Of a stretch of 39,625 bases of DNA, positions 1,817 through 11,658 are shown piece by piece. The stretch lies in assembly GCA_030531795.1 (NCBI GenBank), contig JAUNMN010000011.1, positions 1 through 39,625 on the forward strand, read 5' to 3'. This stretch comes from Neisseria sp. (GTDB taxonomy: Bacteria; Pseudomonadota; Gammaproteobacteria; Burkholderiales; Neisseriaceae). The position numbers were made by a program, and so were the translations under genes. Under the pieces are notes generated by a model. That model made no database searches, had not been told where the DNA came from, and saw only the letters and a program-made list of their open reading frames with translations. Each line of letters opens with the position of its first letter. Position 1 is the stretch's first letter.

Positions 1817-1872
1817 AACTAATATTGATTTAGCTTGTCTTTTGCATTGAAAAAGACAATATCGGTTTTTCT

Positions 1873-1890
1873 TGCCGTCTGCAGACGGCA
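1873..1890. repeat. Palindromic DUS (two DUSs sharing TGCA)
   Basis: GCCGTCTGCA and its reverse complement overlap by four bases, giving an 18-bp perfect palindrome centred on CTGCAG. It lies in the ffh 5' leader, 20 bp before the start codon. It also contains a TTG that would extend ffh by 13 residues; I reject that start. Confidence 0.85.
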
Positions 1891-1910
1891 TCTTTCAACG
1901 AGATTTGAGT

Positions 1911-3275
1911 ATGTTAGACAATTTAACCAGCCGATTCAGTTCGGTGTTCAAAAATATTCGTGGCGTGGCGGTGTTGAATGAAGAAAACATCAAACCTGCT
2001 TTGCGTGAAGTGCGTTTGGCTTTGTTGGAAGCAGACGTTGCCTTGCCTGTGGTGCGCGATTTTGTTGCTTCTGTCAAAGAAAAAGCACTCGGTCGCGAAA
2101 TCACCGAAAACTTAACCGCCGAACAAGCCTTTATTACTGTTGTTAATCAAGCACTTGTGGAATTGATGGGCAAGGAAAACAGTGCGCTGAATTTGGCAAG
2201 TGCACCGCCTGCAGTGGTGTTGATGGCAGGTTTGCAAGGTGCGGGCAAAACCACAACCGTCGGCAAACTGGCGCGTTTACTGAAAAGCCAAGACAAGAAA
2301 AAGAAAATTTTGTTGGTGTCGGCAGACGTTTACCGCCCTGCCGCGATTGAGCAATTGCGTTTGCTTGCCGAGCAAGTTGAAGTGGACTTTTTCCCAGCCG
2401 ACACCAGCCAACAGCCCGTGGCGATTGCCCAAGCCGCTTTGGAACACGCCAAACGCAACTTCTATGATGTGTTGATGGTCGATACCGCAGGTCGTTTGGC
2501 GATAGACGAAGAAATGATGGCGGAAATCAAAGCCTTGCACGCGGCGGTGAACCCAGTAGAAACCCTGTTTGTGGTGGACGCGATGCTCGGTCAAGATGCC
2601 GTGAATACCGCCCAAGCCTTTAACGAAGCCTTGCCATTAACGGGCGTGATTCTCACCAAAATGGACGGCGATTCGCGCGGCGGTGCGGCGTTGTCGGTGC
2701 GACAAGTTACAGGCAAACCGATTAAATTCATCGGCGTGGGCGAGAAAACCGATGGTTTGGAAGCGTTTCACCCCGACCGCATCGCCAGCCGCATTTTGGG
2801 CATGGGCGACGTATTGTCTTTAGTGGAAGACGTACAAAAAGGCATAGATGAAGAAGTTGCCGCCGAAATGGCGAAAAAACTGCGCAAAGGCAAAGGCTTT
2901 GATTTAAACGACTTCAAAGCCCAAATCCAACAAATGCGCAATATGGGCGGTTTGGAAAAAATGATGTCCAAAATGCCAGGAGAGTTGGGGCAACTTTCCA
3001 AACAAATTCCCGAAGGCACAGCCGAAAAAGCGATGGGACGCGTGGAAGCCATCATCAATTCGATGACCCCAAAAGAACGCGCCAACCCTGCCCTACTCAA
3101 AGCCAGCCGCAAGCAACGCATTGCCAAAGGTGCAGGCACAACTGTGCAAGAAGTGAACAAAATGCTCAAACAGTTTGAGCAATCGCAGCAAATGATGAAA
3201 ATGTTTAGCGGCGCAAACATGAAAAAACTGATGAGCATGGCAAAAGGCATGAAAGGCATGTTTCCGAAGTTTTAA
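1911..3275 (+). CDS. ffh: Signal recognition particle protein Ffh (SRP54 GTPase)
   Basis: Ffh binds 4.5S RNA and signal sequences of nascent inner-membrane proteins and docks them to FtsY in a GTP-dependent way. The 454-residue product has the order NG domain then M domain. The P-loop is GLQGAGKTTTVGKLA, followed by DTAGR, TKMDGDSRGGAAL and GVGEKTDGLEAF. The methionine-rich M domain carries the RNA-binding helix-turn-helix and ends in MMKMFSGANMKKLMSMAKG. I start it at MLDNLTSRFSSVF, the conserved N-terminus, rather than at an in-frame TTG inside the upstream palindromic DUS. The gene is monocistronic and ends in a DUS-pair terminator. Confidence 0.97.
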   Translation: MLDNLTSRFSSVFKNIRGVAVLNEENIKPALREVRLALLEADVALPVVRDFVASVKEKALGREITENLTAEQAFITVVNQALVELMGKENSALNLASAPPAVVLMAGLQGAGKTTTVGKLARLLKSQDKKKKILLVSADVYRPAAIEQLRLLAEQVEVDFFPADTSQQPVAIAQAALEHAKRNFYDVLMVDTAGRLAIDEEMMAEIKALHAAVNPVETLFVVDAMLGQDAVNTAQAFNEALPLTGVILTKMDGDSRGGAALSVRQVTGKPIKFIGVGEKTDGLEAFHPDRIASRILGMGDVLSLVEDVQKGIDEEVAAEMAKKLRKGKGFDLNDFKAQIQQMRNMGGLEKMMSKMPGELGQLSKQIPEGTAEKAMGRVEAIINSMTPKERANPALLKASRKQRIAKGAGTTVQEVNKMLKQFEQSQQMMKMFSGANMKKLMSMAKGMKGMFPKF

Positions 3276-3281
3276 ATAACG

Positions 3282-3325
3282 ATGCCGTCTGCGGATTTCA
3301 GTTTTACCCAAACCGCAGACGGCAT
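3282..3325 (+). terminator. DUS-pair hairpin terminator after ffh
   Basis: Inverted 13-bp arms (ATGCCGTCTGCGG and its complement) with an 18-nt loop, followed by TTCCTT. The arms carry the near-DUS form ending in GCG. Confidence 0.7.
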
Positions 3326-3374
3326 TTCCTTATCTCACATTCTCTCACTCATTCTACTTTCTGGAGACGTAAAA

Positions 3375-5274
3375 ATGGCGAACCGAACCGAACCGAACCG
3401 AAATTATACACCAAAACCCAAATAATCTCAAACAAAACAACATCTTAAAACTCAAACAAATCTTCCCCGAAATCTTTTGCGAAGACAAAATTGACTGGGA
3501 AAAATTCAAACTCGTTTTGGGCGAAGACGTGCCGTCTGCAGGTTCAGAACGCTATCAACTCAACTGGGCGGGCAAATCCGATGCCTATCGCAGCCTACAA
3601 GCCCCAACCGAATACACTCTTGCCCCGTGCCAAGCCGAGAGCGTGGATTTTGATGCCACGCAAAACGTGTTTATTGAAGCCGAAAATTTAGAAGCCCTGA
3701 AAATCCTGCAAAAATCTTATGCGGGCGCAGTGAAAATGATATACATCGACCCGCCCTACAACACAGGCAACGACAGCTTCATCTATCCCGACAAATTTGC
3801 CGAAAGCCGTGCCGAATATGCCAAACGCGTGGGCGACACCGACGCAGACGGCATCTTGCAACACGACGGCGTGTTTCAAGGCGCATTTCGCAAAAACAGC
3901 AAAGACAACGGCAATTACCACAGCAACTGGCTTTCCATGATGTTGCCGCGCCTGCATTTGGCGAAAACCTTATTACGCGATGACGGCGTGATTTTCATCT
4001 CGATTGACGACAACGAACAAGCGCAATTGAAATTGCTATGCGATGAAGTGTTTGGGGCAGAGAATTTTGAATCTCTGATTTGGAAGAAAAAAGGCGGCGC
4101 TGGCAATACCGAAAAAATTCTAGGTTGTTTAACCGAATATGTTCTTTGTTATTTCAAACGAAAAGAAGCTGGCATTTTTAACTACCGTGAAATTGACCGC
4201 GTTTACAAATTCAAAGATGAAATCGGCGAATACAATTTAGAAGGCATTGAAAAAAGTAATTCAGGTGCATATGCACGACCGACGATGCTATTTGGTATTG
4301 AAAACCCTAAAACAAAAGAAGTATTTTTTCCTACCAAAGGAATGCGTTGGACAATCGGTAAAGACAAAATTTTTGGACAAAATGAAACCGATGGTTTGTT
4401 ATCTCAAAACAAACTGTATTTTGATGAAAAAAAGAAAAAAGTTTACTTAATCAAACGCCCTGAAGATTATTTGCAATCAGAAAATGTTTACTACAACTTA
4501 CTCACTGAATGCGGCAGTTTAGCTGTTGCAAAAGATGAAATCGCTAATCTCAATTTACCGCGTGAAGCATTTGATACCCCCAAACCAACAGCTTTATTAA
4601 ATTACTTATTGAATTTAGTTACAAATAAAAATTCAGACAGCATCGTTATGGATTTCTTCTCTGGCTCTGGCACAACCGCGCACGCCGTGATGCAACTCAA
4701 TGCGGAAGACGGCGGCAATCGCCGTTATATTTGCGTGCAATTGCCCGAAACCACAGACGAAAAATCCGAAGCGCGTAAAGCAGGTTTTGCCCACATCGCC
4801 GACATCGCCAAAGAACGCATTCGCCGTGCGGGCGTGCAAATCGCAAGCAATTTGTCCAGCGGACAAAACGTGGACACGGGTTTTAAGGTATTCAAACTTG
4901 CCGCCAGCAATTTCAAACAGTGGTGCAATCCCACTGCAGACGGCATCGCCGAACAATTGTCGCTGTTTCAAGATGTGGTTGAAGCGCACGCAACAGTGGA
5001 AAACATGGCATACGAAATCGCTTTGCGTTTGGGTTTTCAATTAACCGACCCGATTGAGTTTGCAGACGGCATGGTGTGGCTCAACAATGCGCAAGGCACG
5101 CGCCCAACCGTGCTGTTGTTGGAACGTTGCGACAACGCGCTGATGCACGCGGTGTTGGCTCGCGCGCCGAAAAAAGTGTTTGCACTGGACAAAGTCTTCG
5201 CTGGCAACGACGCACTCAAAGCCAACGCCGCCTTGCAATGCCAAGACGCTGGCGTGGATTTTGAAACGTTTTAA
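3375..5274 (+). CDS. mod: Type III R-M DNA methyltransferase Mod, phase-variable, OFF as written
   Basis: Adenine methyltransferase and sequence-recognition subunit of a type III restriction-modification system. The ATG at 3375 has a well-spaced GGAG. It opens into ACCGA repeats but meets a TAA at 3423. The long frame is open without interruption from just after 3370 to 5274 but has no ATG near its start. One added repeat would give a protein of about 634 residues starting MANRTEPNRTE and continuing with a typical Mod N-terminus (LKQIFPEIFCEDKIDW). Motif IV DPPYNTG (about residue 127) precedes motif I DFFSGSGTTAHAV (about 428), the beta-class order. The segment between, 4075-4640, is the target recognition region and is AT-rich. 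The stop is 11 bp before res. A TTG at 3517 could give a 585-residue truncated form, but it lacks the conserved N-terminus. Confidence 0.92.
3382..3401 (+). repeat. Phase-variation tract, four ACCGA pentanucleotide repeats
   Basis: Four uninterrupted copies of ACCGA begin 7 bases after the mod ATG at 3375. Because the unit is 5 bp, every gain or loss shifts the reading frame. ACCGA is, as I recall, the unit in modD of Neisseria meningitidis. With four copies the ATG frame reads 16 codons to a TAA at 3423. One copy more, or two fewer, would join it to the long mod frame. Confidence 0.85.
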
Positions 5275-5285
5275 GGGGCAACATC

Positions 5286-7880
5286 ATGCAACTGCAATTT
5301 GAACAACTGGATTTTCAAACGCAAGCGATTGCGGCGATTGTGGATTTATTTCGTGGCGAACAACATCATGGCAGCGAATTTGGTTTGCACAATCCGTTTT
5401 CGCCCGAAATCGCCAATCGTTTGCTGTTGAGCCATACCGAGATTGAACGCAATTTGCATGAAATTCAACAACAAAATGCGCTGGTGCAGACGGCAATCGG
5501 CGATTTTGGTTTGAATTTCAATGTGGAAATGGAAACGGGAACGGGCAAAACTTATGTTTATTTGCGCACGATTTTGGAATTAAACCGCGCTTATGGTTGG
5601 CGCAAATTTGTGATTGTCGTGCCGAGTGTCGCCATTCGCGAAGGCGTGAACCAAACTTTGCGTGCCACAAAAGCGCATTTTGATAATCTGTTTGATAAGC
5701 CGATTGTGCATCATCAAACTTATCGCAGCGACAAATTAAACGCTTTAAAACAATTCGCGCAAAGTTTGAATATTGAAATTTTGTTGATGAATATTGACGC
5801 GTTCAATAAAAAAGACAATTTGATTAACCGTGCCAACGAAAATGGCGAAGCACCGATTACGCATTTAGCAAGCACGCGTCCGATTGTGATTATTGATGAA
5901 CCGCAAAACATGGCAAGCGATTTGGCACAACAAGCGATTGATTCGCTGAATCCTTTGTTTGTGTTGCGTTATTCGGCAACGCACAAACAGCCATTTCACA
6001 AGGTGTTCAGCTTAAATCCGATTGCGGCATACAATCAAAAACTGGTGAAGCAAATTGAAGTGCATTCGGTGGTGGCGCGCCACGATGCCAACGGTGCGTA
6101 TGTTTTGCTCAAAGGTTTTGACCCGAAAAAAACCAAATTAACGGCAAATGTGGAATTGCATTGCGTGGACAAACTGGAAACCAAAAAGAAAGCGGTGAAA
6201 GTGAGTGCGGGCGATGATTTGTTTGTCAAATCGGGCGGCAATGAAATGTATCGGCAAGGTTTTGTGGTGAATGCCTTGAGTCGCGAACACGGCACGATGA
6301 CTTTATCCAACGGGCAAACCATCACGCTGGGCGAACAAGATGATGCGGTGCGCGATGAAATCATGAAAACGCAAATGCGTGAAACCATCAAAGAACATTT
6401 ACGCAAAGAGCGCAAACTCAATCCGCAAGGAATTAAGGTTTTGTCTTTGTTTTTCATTGATAAAGTGGCGAATTATCGCAACGATGGCAAGTTTGCGCGT
6501 TGGTTTAAAGAGATTTACGAACAGGAAACGGGCAAAAGTGCAGACGGCATTCACGATGGTTATTTCTCTGCCGACAAAGACACCAAAGGCAATAGCGAAG
6601 CAGACGAGAAAACCTATGATTTGATTATGAAAGACAAGGAAAAATTGTTGTCGCTGGATACGCCTTTGCGTTTTATTTTTTCGCATTCGGCGTTGAAAGA
6701 AGGCTGGGATAATCCTAACGTTTTTCAAATTTGCACTTTCAATGAAACGCAATCACCGATTAAAAAACGCCAAGAAATCGGACGCGGTTTGCGTTTGGCG
6801 GTGAACCAAAAAGGCGAACGTGTGCGCGATGAAGGCGTGAATATTTTGACCGTGATTCCGAATGAAAGCTATGAAGCGTTTGCCGCTAATTTGCAAAAGG
6901 AATACGAAGACGAATACAACATTCAATTTGCCAACGGCGGGGCGAAAAAGAAAGAACAACGCCAACAGCAAACTTATCGCAAAGGTTTCACACTAGACCC
7001 GAATTTTGTCGCCATTTGGCAGAAGTTGTGCCACAAAACGCGTTATTCAGTGCAATTTGAACGCGAAAAACTGATTGCCGAAGCAGTGAAACGGATTCAA
7101 CAAATGCCTGAAATTCCCAAAACGGGCATTGTGGTGCAAAAAGCGGATTTGGCACAAAGCATCACTTACGGCGTTGAAGCAAGCGAACGCGACAGCAAGC
7201 AACATCACATTCAGCTGGACTGGGCAATTCCCGATGTGTTGAGTGCGATTCAAAAGAAAACGCAATTAACCCGTCAAACGATTTTTGAGATTGTGCAACA
7301 ATCTGGACGCGTGAACGAAATTGCCCACAATCCGCAATATTTTATTGATTTGATGAGCGAAACCATCAAACAGGCATTGCACGCTTTGATGATTGACGGC
7401 ATTGAATATGCTCGTTTGCCCGACAATGACACACATTACACCCAAAGTTTAGCCAAATGGCAAAACTTGGAACAATTTGGCTCGGAGTTTTTCCGCAATC
7501 AGCATACTTTTTCGGTGCAAAATCCAAACAAAACCATTTTTGCGGATTACATTAACTTGGATTCCGACACTGAACACACGTTTGCTCAAAACTGCGAAAA
7601 TTATGACGATGTGTTGCTGTATTTCAAATTGCCCAACTGGTTCAAAATCCCCACGCCCATCGGCAATTACAACCCCGACTGGGCGATTGTGATGCGCAAT
7701 CGAGAACACGTTTATTTTGTTGCTGAAACCAAAAACACGGGTAAAAGCACACAAGATGGCGTGGTTTTGGCGAAATTAAGCGAAGCAGAACAGCAAAAAA
7801 TCGCCTGTGCCAAAAAGCATTTTTCTGTGTTTGATGGCGTGAAATATCAGGTGGTGGAAACGTTGAGCGAATTAAACTGA
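5286..7880 (+). CDS. res: Type III restriction endonuclease subunit Res
   Basis: 864-residue helicase-nuclease that works with Mod. Walker A is METGTGKT (82-89) and the Walker B variant is IIDEPQ (202-207). Motif III-like SAT lies at 230-232, and motifs V-VI run from about 466 to 505 (FSHSALKEGWDNPNVF to IGRGLRL). The C-terminal PD-(D/E)xK nuclease site is visible as PDW at 797-799 with ETK at 814-816. All key residues are present and the frame is intact. The gene starts 11 bp after mod and is probably co-transcribed. In type III systems Res needs Mod for recognition, so restriction should be silent while mod is OFF. Two exact DUS copies lie inside (5485, 6539). Confidence 0.95.
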   Translation: MQLQFEQLDFQTQAIAAIVDLFRGEQHHGSEFGLHNPFSPEIANRLLLSHTEIERNLHEIQQQNALVQTAIGDFGLNFNVEMETGTGKTYVYLRTILELNRAYGWRKFVIVVPSVAIREGVNQTLRATKAHFDNLFDKPIVHHQTYRSDKLNALKQFAQSLNIEILLMNIDAFNKKDNLINRANENGEAPITHLASTRPIVIIDEPQNMASDLAQQAIDSLNPLFVLRYSATHKQPFHKVFSLNPIAAYNQKLVKQIEVHSVVARHDANGAYVLLKGFDPKKTKLTANVELHCVDKLETKKKAVKVSAGDDLFVKSGGNEMYRQGFVVNALSREHGTMTLSNGQTITLGEQDDAVRDEIMKTQMRETIKEHLRKERKLNPQGIKVLSLFFIDKVANYRNDGKFARWFKEIYEQETGKSADGIHDGYFSADKDTKGNSEADEKTYDLIMKDKEKLLSLDTPLRFIFSHSALKEGWDNPNVFQICTFNETQSPIKKRQEIGRGLRLAVNQKGERVRDEGVNILTVIPNESYEAFAANLQKEYEDEYNIQFANGGAKKKEQRQQQTYRKGFTLDPNFVAIWQKLCHKTRYSVQFEREKLIAEAVKRIQQMPEIPKTGIVVQKADLAQSITYGVEASERDSKQHHIQLDWAIPDVLSAIQKKTQLTRQTIFEIVQQSGRVNEIAHNPQYFIDLMSETIKQALHALMIDGIEYARLPDNDTHYTQSLAKWQNLEQFGSEFFRNQHTFSVQNPNKTIFADYINLDSDTEHTFAQNCENYDDVLLYFKLPNWFKIPTPIGNYNPDWAIVMRNREHVYFVAETKNTGKSTQDGVVLAKLSEAEQQKIACAKKHFSVFDGVKYQVVETLSELN

Positions 7881-7890
7881 ATGATGTTTT

Positions 7891-7996: not shown

Positions 7997-9886
7997 TCAA
8001 ACCAGTTTTGCCAACCAGTTTTGAATTTGTTGGTTTAAGGCGGGTTCGCTTAAACCCAAGTCGTCTAACAAGCGGTTTGGGTCGCCGTGTTCGGTAACAA
8101 TGTCGGCAATGCCTGCCAGCAAAACGGGTTTATACACGCCTTTGGCTGCCAAGCATTCTAAAACTGCGCTGCCTGCACCGCCTGCTTGAGCGTTTTCTTC
8201 GGCACAAACCAAGTAATCGTGTTCGCTTGCCAGTTGCAAGATTAAATCGCTGTCTAATGGTTTGACAAAACGCATATCGGCAAGCGTGTAGTCGTGTTGT
8301 TCGGCGATGGCGGCGGCTGAGGCAACCATGCTGCCGAAGGCAATGATGGCAACTTTTTTGCCTTGGCGGCGGACAATGCCTTTACCCACGGGCACGGTTG
8401 CCAAATCGTTTGTTGGGTTTACACCTATTCCGCTGCCACGCGGATAACGCACCACGCTTGGGCAATCCAGCTGATAGCAAGTGGACAAGAGCAGACGGCA
8501 TTCGTTTTCATCGCTTGGGGCGGCAATCACCATATTCGGCACGCAACGCAAATAGCTTAAATCGTAAACACCAGCGTGGGTTGGGCCGTCTGCGCCGACA
8601 ATGCCTGCGCGGTCAACCGCAAACATCACGGGCAAATTTTGCAGGGCAACATCGTGCAGCAACTGGTCGTAGGCACGTTGTAAAAAAGTGGAATAAATCG
8701 CGACAACGGGTTTCGTGCCTTCACACGCCAAACCTGCGGCAAAGGTTACGGCGTGTTGCTCGGCAATGCCCACATCAAAATAACGCGTCGGGAACGCTTG
8801 TTCAAATTCAACCAAACCGCTGCCTTCGCGCATCGCTGGCGTAATCGCCACCAAACGTTCATCTGCCGCCGCTTGGTCAAGCAACCATTGCGAGAAAATT
8901 TCGGTGTAAGTCGGTTTTTTCGCTGGCGTGGCAAGGGTTTTGCCGTCTGCAGACGGCGTTTTGCCGATGGCGTGGTATTTCACAGGGTCGTTTTCGGCTA
9001 ATTTATAGCCCTGCCCTTTTTTGGTTACCACATGCAAAAGCTGCGGCCCTTTGCGATTGCGTAAATCTTTTAAAATATCAACCAGTTGCTCCACATTATG
9101 CCCATCAACTGGCCCTGTGTAGCTGAAACCAAAATTCTCAAACAAAGACAAAGATTGCTTCATGTGTTCGGCCTCGGAAGCCATACTTTTGATTTTGTTT
9201 TCTACTTTTTGGGCGATTTCCATTGCCCCTGGTAATTTGTCCAACACCTTGCTCGATTGTGCTTTGATGGTGCTGAGCAAACCGTGCATATCGCGCACCA
9301 CATTGCGTGCCAAATATTTGGGCAACGCGCCTACGTTTGGCGAAATCGACATTTCATTGTCGTTCAAAATCACCAACAAATTCACGTCCATATCGCCTGC
9401 GTTATTGAGTGCTTCAAACGCTTGTCCAGCGGTCATCGCACCATCGCCGATAATCGCCACGCTGCGATGTTCGCGTCCTGCCAGTTTGTCGGCAACCGCC
9501 ATGCCCAATGCCGCGCCGATGGAAGTAGACGAATGCCCCACGCCAAAATCATCGTATTCGCTTTCGCTGCGTTTGGGAAAACCCGCCAAACCACCGTATT
9601 GACGCATGGTGTGCATCTGATTTTTGCGCCCCGTTAAGATTTTGTGCGGATACGATTGATGCCCCACGTCCCACACCAAATGGTCGTTCGGCGTGTCGTA
9701 GACATAATGCAAAGCCACCGTCAATTCAACCGCGCCCAAATTGCTGGCAAAATGTCCGCCCGTTTGGCTCACGCTTTCCAACAAAAACGCACGCAATTCT
9801 GCCGACAATTGTGGCAACTGCGTAGGCGACAAACGGCGCAAATCTTGCGGCAAGTCTATGGTGTCTAACAAGGGCGTATGGCTCAT
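7997..9886 (-). CDS. dxs: 1-deoxy-D-xylulose-5-phosphate synthase
   Basis: Thiamine-diphosphate enzyme that condenses pyruvate with glyceraldehyde 3-phosphate, the first step of the MEP isoprenoid pathway. The 629-residue product has the transketolase order. The N-terminal part has H45 in GGHFASN and the cofactor site GDG (147-149) with NDN (175-177). The central part has [13 protein letters not shown] and [15 protein letters not shown], and a C-terminal transketolase fold follows. I start at MSHTPLLDT, preceded by GAGAGA, six codons inside the longest frame. A palindromic DUS (8942-8957) lies in frame and encodes TPSADG in the linker between the two catalytic halves, where insertions are tolerated. 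The gene is monocistronic with a structured leader. Confidence 0.97.
8942..8957. repeat. Palindromic DUS inside dxs
   Basis: A 16-bp perfect palindrome made of two overlapping DUSs, here within coding sequence. It is read in frame as Pro-Ser-Ala-Asp-Gly. Confidence 0.85.
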
Positions 9887-9953
9887 GGTGTTTTCTCTCA
9901 GCAAACGGGGTTTGCGGTATTTTTCTGATAACTCAAAACCTTATCTTTTTTCG

Positions 9954-10644: not shown

Positions 10645-10750
10645 GTTTGCTTTCGTTCTCGTTGATAAAAGTTGGCAAAACCGCATTATACAAGGGTTTG
10701 CCACCCTGCAGACGGCACGCGATTTTTCACAGTATCCACCGCAAATCGCG

Positions 10751-10756
10751 TACAAT
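10751..10756 (+). promoter_or_regulatory. -10 box immediately before xerC
   Basis: TACAAT ends 8 bp before the xerC ATG, so transcription should begin within a few bases of the start codon. No Shine-Dalgarno sequence is present. This suggests a leaderless or near-leaderless mRNA. Confidence 0.4.
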
Positions 10757-10764
10757 CTCGCCCC

Positions 10765-11658
10765 ATGAATACCGACACTTTCCCCAATTATCTCAACGAT
10801 TTTGTGCAAAAACTGCAACAAGAAGGCAAATCGGCACACACCATCGCCGCCTATCAACGCGATTTGCAGCAATTGTTTAGCCTGTTGCCGCCTGCAGCCG
10901 AATGCAAAAAAACCGTGTTCGCCAGCGTATTGCGCAAATTGTCGCAACAAAATCAAAGTCCACGTTCGCTCGCACGCAAAGTGTCGGCGTGGCGACAGTA
11001 TGGCGATTTTTTGGTACGCCAAAACCTGCTCGCCGCCAATCCCATCGCCTCACTCAAAACCCCAAAAATTCCGCCACTTTTGCCCAAAGCGATGAGTGCC
11101 GAACCACTCAATCATGTGTTCAACCACGCCCAAAGCACAGACGATGACGAACTGGCAACGCGTGATTTGGCGATGTTTGAACTGCTTTACGGTTGCGGTT
11201 TGCGTTTATCTGAATTGCAAAGTTTGGATTTAAAAGACATTTTATTAGACGAAGGTTGGGTCAGCGTGTTGGGCAAAGGCAAAAAAATGCGCCAAGTGCC
11301 AGTGGGCAAAAGTGCACTGAACGCCGTGCGCCAGTATTTAAGCGAACGCGTTGCCGCCAGCGATGAAACCGCCTTGTTCACCAATAAACACGGCAAACGC
11401 ATCAGCACCCGCCAAATTCAATATCGCCTGCGCGACTGGGCAATCAAACACCACAGCAGCGAACATTTGCACCCACACAAGCTGCGCCACAGCTACGCCA
11501 GCCACGTTTTGCAAGCGGCAGGCGACATTCGGGCGGTGCAAGAATTGCTTGGACACAGCAGCTTATCCACCACCCAAATTTACACCAAATTGGACTTCGA
11601 TCACCTCGCCAAAGTCTACGACCAAACCCACCCACGGGCGAAGAAGAAAAAAGATTAG
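10765..11658 (+). CDS. xerC: Tyrosine recombinase XerC
   Basis: Site-specific recombinase that with XerD resolves chromosome dimers at dif. The 297-residue product has an N-terminal core-binding domain (about 1-100) and a C-terminal catalytic domain. The catalytic set is visible: Arg in GCGLRLSEL, His-x-x-Arg in HPHKLRHSYASHVL, His in LGHSSLSTTQ and the nucleophile Tyr in IYTKLDF. The ending VYDQTHPRAKKKKD resembles the XerC C-terminus rather than XerD. I start at MNTDTFPNYL; the frame runs further upstream but through a DUS. There is no ribosome-binding site, and a -10 box sits just upstream. An 11-bp-period repeat array follows the stop. Confidence 0.93.
   Translation: MNTDTFPNYLNDFVQKLQQEGKSAHTIAAYQRDLQQLFSLLPPAAECKKTVFASVLRKLSQQNQSPRSLARKVSAWRQYGDFLVRQNLLAANPIASLKTPKIPPLLPKAMSAEPLNHVFNHAQSTDDDELATRDLAMFELLYGCGLRLSELQSLDLKDILLDEGWVSVLGKGKKMRQVPVGKSALNAVRQYLSERVAASDETALFTNKHGKRISTRQIQYRLRDWAIKHHSSEHLHPHKLRHSYASHVLQAAGDIRAVQELLGHSSLSTTQIYTKLDFDHLAKVYDQTHPRAKKKKD

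Follow-up and report, generated by a model that had tools for sequence, protein, structure and literature searches.

We analysed a window of 39,625 nucleotides from a Neisseria genome and found a complete pair of type III restriction-modification genes, mod and res, which is very probably a ModD-kind system. Judging from the sequence, its mod gene would be phase-variable through slippage of an ACCGA repeat tract and is seen here out of frame. There is good support for interpreting the gene as a ModD-like switch. The host genome is a draft (68 contigs, 86% complete), its best ffh match among the species compared is 82% identical at the DNA level, and it is the only genome of its species in the comparison.

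Architecture of the mod-res pair and its start region

All features of the pair lie on the + strand. A GGAG motif at 3363-3366, which reads as a likely ribosome-binding site, stands 8 bases 5' of an ATG at 3375. Translation from this ATG yields MANRTEPNRNYTPKPK and ends after 16 codons at a TAA at 3423-3425, which gives a short frame spanning 3375-3425. Within this frame lies an ACCGA repeat tract (3379-3402) of 4.8 copies in all, with four perfect units at 3382-3401 as located by a pattern search; Tandem Repeats Finder calls the same stretch as CGAAC, also with 4.8 copies at 3379-3402. A chance repeat is ruled out, because none of 100 dinucleotide shuffles of the window reproduced the four-unit array, the (ACCGA)3 pattern has the mod start as its sole locus across the 1.67 Mb genome, and the repeat is placed at mod across the genus. 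A promoter scan of 3200-3600 returned no site on the coding strand and one site on the other strand, and a terminator scan of the same interval, which considered short loops only, reported none. Directly 3' of ffh, at 3284-3323, two uptake-like cores lie in opposite orientation, and they could act as an ffh terminator.

The open frame of Mod extends from 3373 to 5274 (633 codons and a stop) in a different register from the ATG at 3375, and it has no ATG 5' of the repeats. Its earliest start codon of any kind is a TTG at 3517, located 114 bases 3' of the repeats, and its earliest ATG lies 333 bases 3' of them. The encoded protein is a type III methyltransferase, with matches to Pfam N6_N4_Mtase (PF01555, 3.2e-35) and PADLOC MTase_III (1.8e-177) and alignments to the solved Mods 6k0w (9.3e-79) and 4zcf (1.7e-60). 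In an alignment of 16 sequences, the DPPY catalytic motif (3748-3759) is invariant, as are residues F429, G431 and G433 of FSGSG, the FxGxG cofactor-binding motif (4657-4671). After an 11-base gap from the mod stop, an intact res gene (5286-7880) encodes a restriction subunit of 864 aa that matches Pfam ResIII and RE_endonuc and PADLOC REase_III (1.3e-285). Five motifs were checked in Res, and its Walker A, DEPQ, QEIGRGLR region and PD...ExK are present in 16 of 16 aligned copies. The pair accordingly comprises what a type III restriction-modification system consists of, namely a Mod with DPPY and FxGxG and, next to it, a Res bearing helicase motifs and a PD-ExK nuclease.

These results confirm the original observation and support its interpretation in part. 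The order of GGAG, ATG, four ACCGA units and a stop at 3423 holds at base level, the full Mod frame is open in another phase without an ATG of its own, and the calculation that one more unit or two fewer would produce an intact Mod matches the codon phases observed. Pfam, PADLOC, translation and the motif alignment all bear out a type III mod beside an intact res. The open frame was also described correctly, and only its length of about 634 residues needs amendment, as that figure counts the stop.

In the current register, translation from the ATG would end after 16 codons, and no full Mod would be made. The Res of type III enzymes depends on Mod, and by this reasoning both activities should be silent. 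Slippage would alter the number of units and therefore the register, and one register of three would permit a full Mod that methylates its own target and arms Res. The anatomy, the register and the differing tract lengths of orthologues are observed, whereas switching of the window copy, a target of its own and any consequences for other genes are inferred. The phasevarion suggested originally, in which ON and OFF cells would differ in methylome and in the expression of many genes, would be an extension beyond this model.

Repeat tracts and reading registers among relatives

The comparison comprised 17 mod loci with their flanks from 16 genomes, which together with the window gave 18 tabulated rows; lower-scoring homologues in G036 and G008 (both GCCAA, in frame) and in G052 (AGCC, in frame, cut by a contig end) stand outside this table. 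Mod matches occurred in 59 of 120 relatives, many of which are distant methylases. The (ACCGA)3 pattern, at one locus per genome, was detected in nine of the 46 genomes of the genus and in nine of the 83 of the family, and the arrays in the genus are always at the start of the orthologous mod, where they contain 3 to 21 complete units. With partial units included, the ACCGA tracts number 4.8 copies in the window, 8.0 in G024, 8.4 in G045, 21.4 in G001, 3.4 in G040, 12.8 in G017, 10.2 at locus C54 of G033, 15.8 in G022 and 5.4 in G003. Other units also occupy the mod start: a GCAACCA-type heptamer in G005 (9.0 copies), G023 (11.1), G018 (6.6) and G019 (3.1), GCACA in G039 (11.6) and at locus C6 of G033 (5.6), GCCAA in G049 from another genus (4.0), and poly-G in G015 (L131, 9) and G032 (L129, 11). 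The three-unit heptamer pattern was found in 3 of 46 genus genomes, at the orthologous mod only. G033 holds two pairs of the family, of which C6 (L136) carries GCACA in frame and C54 (L130) carries ACCGA out of frame, and the poly-G pair of G032 is decayed in both genes. The mods of G024, G015 and G005 have a recognition domain in common (89-100% identity) and bear tracts of ACCGA, poly-G and the heptamer, respectively, which indicates that the repeat unit is not tied to the recognition domain.

Copies of the gene from different species have tracts of different length, as is characteristic of phase-variable genes. G039 and locus C6 of G033 encode a near-same Mod (pN 0.001, pS 0.000, 653 codons), and the DNA immediately upstream is also the same; their GCACA tracts are six units apart with both in frame, which indicates that tracts of this mod gene slip. 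The heptamer tracts of G005 and G023 (pN 0.003) are two units apart, with upstream DNA that differs, and the ACCGA tracts of G003 and G040, which have neighbouring genes in common, are likewise two units apart.

All nine ACCGA copies, and 15 of the 18 tabulated rows, are out of frame with their own ATG; the in-frame rows are G018, G039 and locus C6 of G033. If one register of three is open, the chance of nine out of nine is 0.026 and that of at least 15 out of 18 is 0.10. However, this bias was spotted after the fact among related genomes, G032 is broken otherwise, and the three untabulated homologues are in frame, which makes the bias toward OFF a lead only. The accessible portion of PMC13248682 describes ModD1 cultures as approximately 90% ON, which speaks against a general OFF rule.

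The same observations bear on whether the window allele is instead locked OFF, with a tract too short to slip often and a pair that has long been silent and may be heading to loss. The four units of the window fall below the five-unit threshold for pentanucleotides given in the portion of PMC5953494 consulted, each of the nine ACCGA copies is out of frame, and the G032 pair provides an example of decay in both genes. However, the text available from PMC4751487 reports meningococcal modD tracts of 2-15 units and shows that Tan et al. treat at least three units as switchable, citing tetranucleotide data, and the tract of G040 is even shorter (3.4 copies) while G003 has 5.4 copies at the same site. 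Furthermore, the 633 codons of Mod and the 864 codons of Res are open with their motifs kept, and dN/dS is well below 1: it ranged from 0.24 to 0.35 in 14 of 16 comparisons of the window Mod with other Mods, with 2 of 16 saturated at synonymous sites, although such values are averages across the two lineages compared and fall short of proving that Mod is in use now. We therefore consider a locked allele unlikely. A decayed pseudogene is also not favoured, as both frames are open, dN/dS is well below 1 and the Res motifs are kept.

An assembly error in the number of units, which would mean that the gene is simply in frame, is very improbable: draft genomes can miscount short repeats, but this tract of 24 bases is below ordinary read length, and four of the eight other ACCGA copies come from genomes assembled into one or two contigs and are likewise out of frame. 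Even less credible is that the TTG at 3517, which opens a frame of 585 residues, makes Mod regardless of the tract and leaves the repeats without control; we rejected this bypass because its product would lack 48 residues that include K28, F31, P32, E33, F35, E37, I40, D41 and K44, all of which are invariant across the 16 aligned sequences, and furthermore the region aligned to the solved Mods starts at residue 21 or 26, ahead of that product, and the TTG is not conserved as a start, with the first start codons past the tract located elsewhere in most relatives.

Recognition domain, insertion site and uptake-sequence dialect

A drop in identity relative to the 17 related Mods marks the variable recognition domain of the window Mod, whose approximate limits are 4069-4575. 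Identity to these Mods is 17-27% within the domain, 66-82% in the N part (66% belongs to the broken G032, and the others span 73-82%) and 55-72% in the C part, which is the arrangement of a variable recognition domain between conserved flanks that is found in ModD. Searching 83 family genomes with the domain gave matches in 19, with a best foreign identity of 37% in a different Mod of G045, and searching 398 phylum genomes gave matches in 18 including its own, with 28% for the best-scoring foreign match and 34% as the top identity listed. By these comparisons, the recognition domain is new, with at most 37% identity to any match in the genomes searched. In a tree built without the recognition domains, the branch joining the window Mod to its eight nearest rows is supported, and the order inside it is open.

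The pair is inserted between ffh (1872-3275), which adjoins it on the mod side, and a dxs-like gene (7997-9904, Pfam DXP synthase), which adjoins it on the res side. None of the 17 other copies has ffh as an immediate neighbour; in G001, ffh is approximately 7 kb upstream of mod and separated from it by other genes. The ffh-dxs insertion site is new for a ModD-like pair. In G019, the gap between ffh and dxs is filled by a 361-aa frame, which by eye resembles an alcohol dehydrogenase, and in G021 ffh is followed by a frame with a similar start. Because flanking genes differ among copies, the mod-res pair appears to move between sites, presumably by transformation and recombination. An integrase gene of the tyrosine-recombinase type (10672-11658; Pfam Phage_integrase and a SAM-like domain) is located approximately 2.8 kb past res and encodes either a chromosomal XerC/XerD or a mobile-element integrase.

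Of 17 Neisseria copies of Res, 16 are unbroken and that of G032 is split. Tan et al. noted, in the part of PMC4751487 available, inactivating mutations in some cognate restriction enzymes, and they suggested regulation as the reason that mod is kept. The copies compared here suggest that restriction may be kept too, besides mod. Across the genus the pair occupies many chromosomal sites, and with all but one Neisseria Res intact, switchable restriction, beyond gene regulation, becomes a serious candidate for the selected trait. We offer tentatively the broader idea, which we regard as possible rather than probable, that the switch of this Mod family is an exchangeable module, given that orthologues alike in their Mod and Res flanks bear different repeat units at the mod start. 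Selection would then act on the switchability of an intact restriction system, and the OFF state would prevail in sequenced genomes (15 of 18 rows).

The window also carries the DNA-uptake-sequence dialect that had been described as different. In positions 1-39625, C directly follows the core in 51 of 51 GCCGTCTG cores, and TGCCGTCTGCA occurs 1919 times in the host genome (G000), 766 times in G019, and 600 times in G039, while none of the remaining 43 genomes of the genus has more than 26 copies; the dialect is therefore real, and it has no bearing on the switch. The literature searched did not contain ATGCCGTCTGCA, nor did GCCGTCTGC occur in the main text of PMC3630211, a paper on uptake-sequence dialects, with the proviso that hyphenated spellings would be missed. 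Seven possible new dialects are mentioned, without listing, in the portion of PMC11316581 that was available. The uptake repeat with C after the core may represent an uncatalogued dialect. The mod-res pair (3370-7885) contains six uptake-like cores, and all six are in the host dialect, which suggests either long residence of the pair or a donor of the same dialect.

Comparison with ModD and other type III systems

The original identification of ACCGA as the ModD unit finds support in the available portions of two papers, in which an ACCGA tract is the switch of ModD1, whose target is CCAGC (PMC13248682), and ACCGA is the repeat unit of modD NEIS2364 (PMC7371114). A phasome survey counted 127 modD genes, 70 of them with tracts, and its table gives modD as NMB1261 with CCAATG (PMC5953494, in part), which is at odds with the other papers. 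The excerpted text of PMC4751487 also assigns modD alleles to N. lactamica (modD3), N. cinerea (modD4) and N. mucosa (modD5). The expectation of a ModD-like gene outside the pathogens is thus correct as to its presence, but these alleles remove its novelty. The reference rule for modD alleles in the same source requires flanks more than 90% identical; between the window Mod and the other eight ACCGA Mods, flank identity is 77-82% in the N part and 55-72% in the C part, both below 90%, although some of these Mods may themselves not count as modD.

Like ModD1 of N. meningitidis and modD3-modD5, the window gene is a type III mod whose start holds an ACCGA tract, and its product has DPPY and FxGxG motifs and conserved flanks around a variable recognition domain. 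Unlike them, it has a recognition domain without a close match in the genomes searched and a site between ffh and dxs. We conclude that the window gene is very probably another switch of the ModD kind. It brings a new allele of the recognition domain from a Neisseria for which sampling is sparse, and what is generally understood of phase-variable type III systems stays as it was.

ModA and ModB of Neisseria have the switch principle and enzyme class in common with the window Mod, and modB and modA, too, are known to vary in their repeat units (PMC4751487, in part). In contrast to the ACCGA of the window, the units are GCCA/AGCC for ModA and CCCAA or GCCAA for ModB in the portions of the literature available. 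The Mods of two GCCAA congeners, which are ModB-like by unit only, had an N part 42% identical and a C part 36% identical to those of the window Mod. Finally, the window pair has the Mod and Res architecture of the EcoP15I type (4zcf), from which it differs in that its mod bears a repeat tract at the start and is out of frame.
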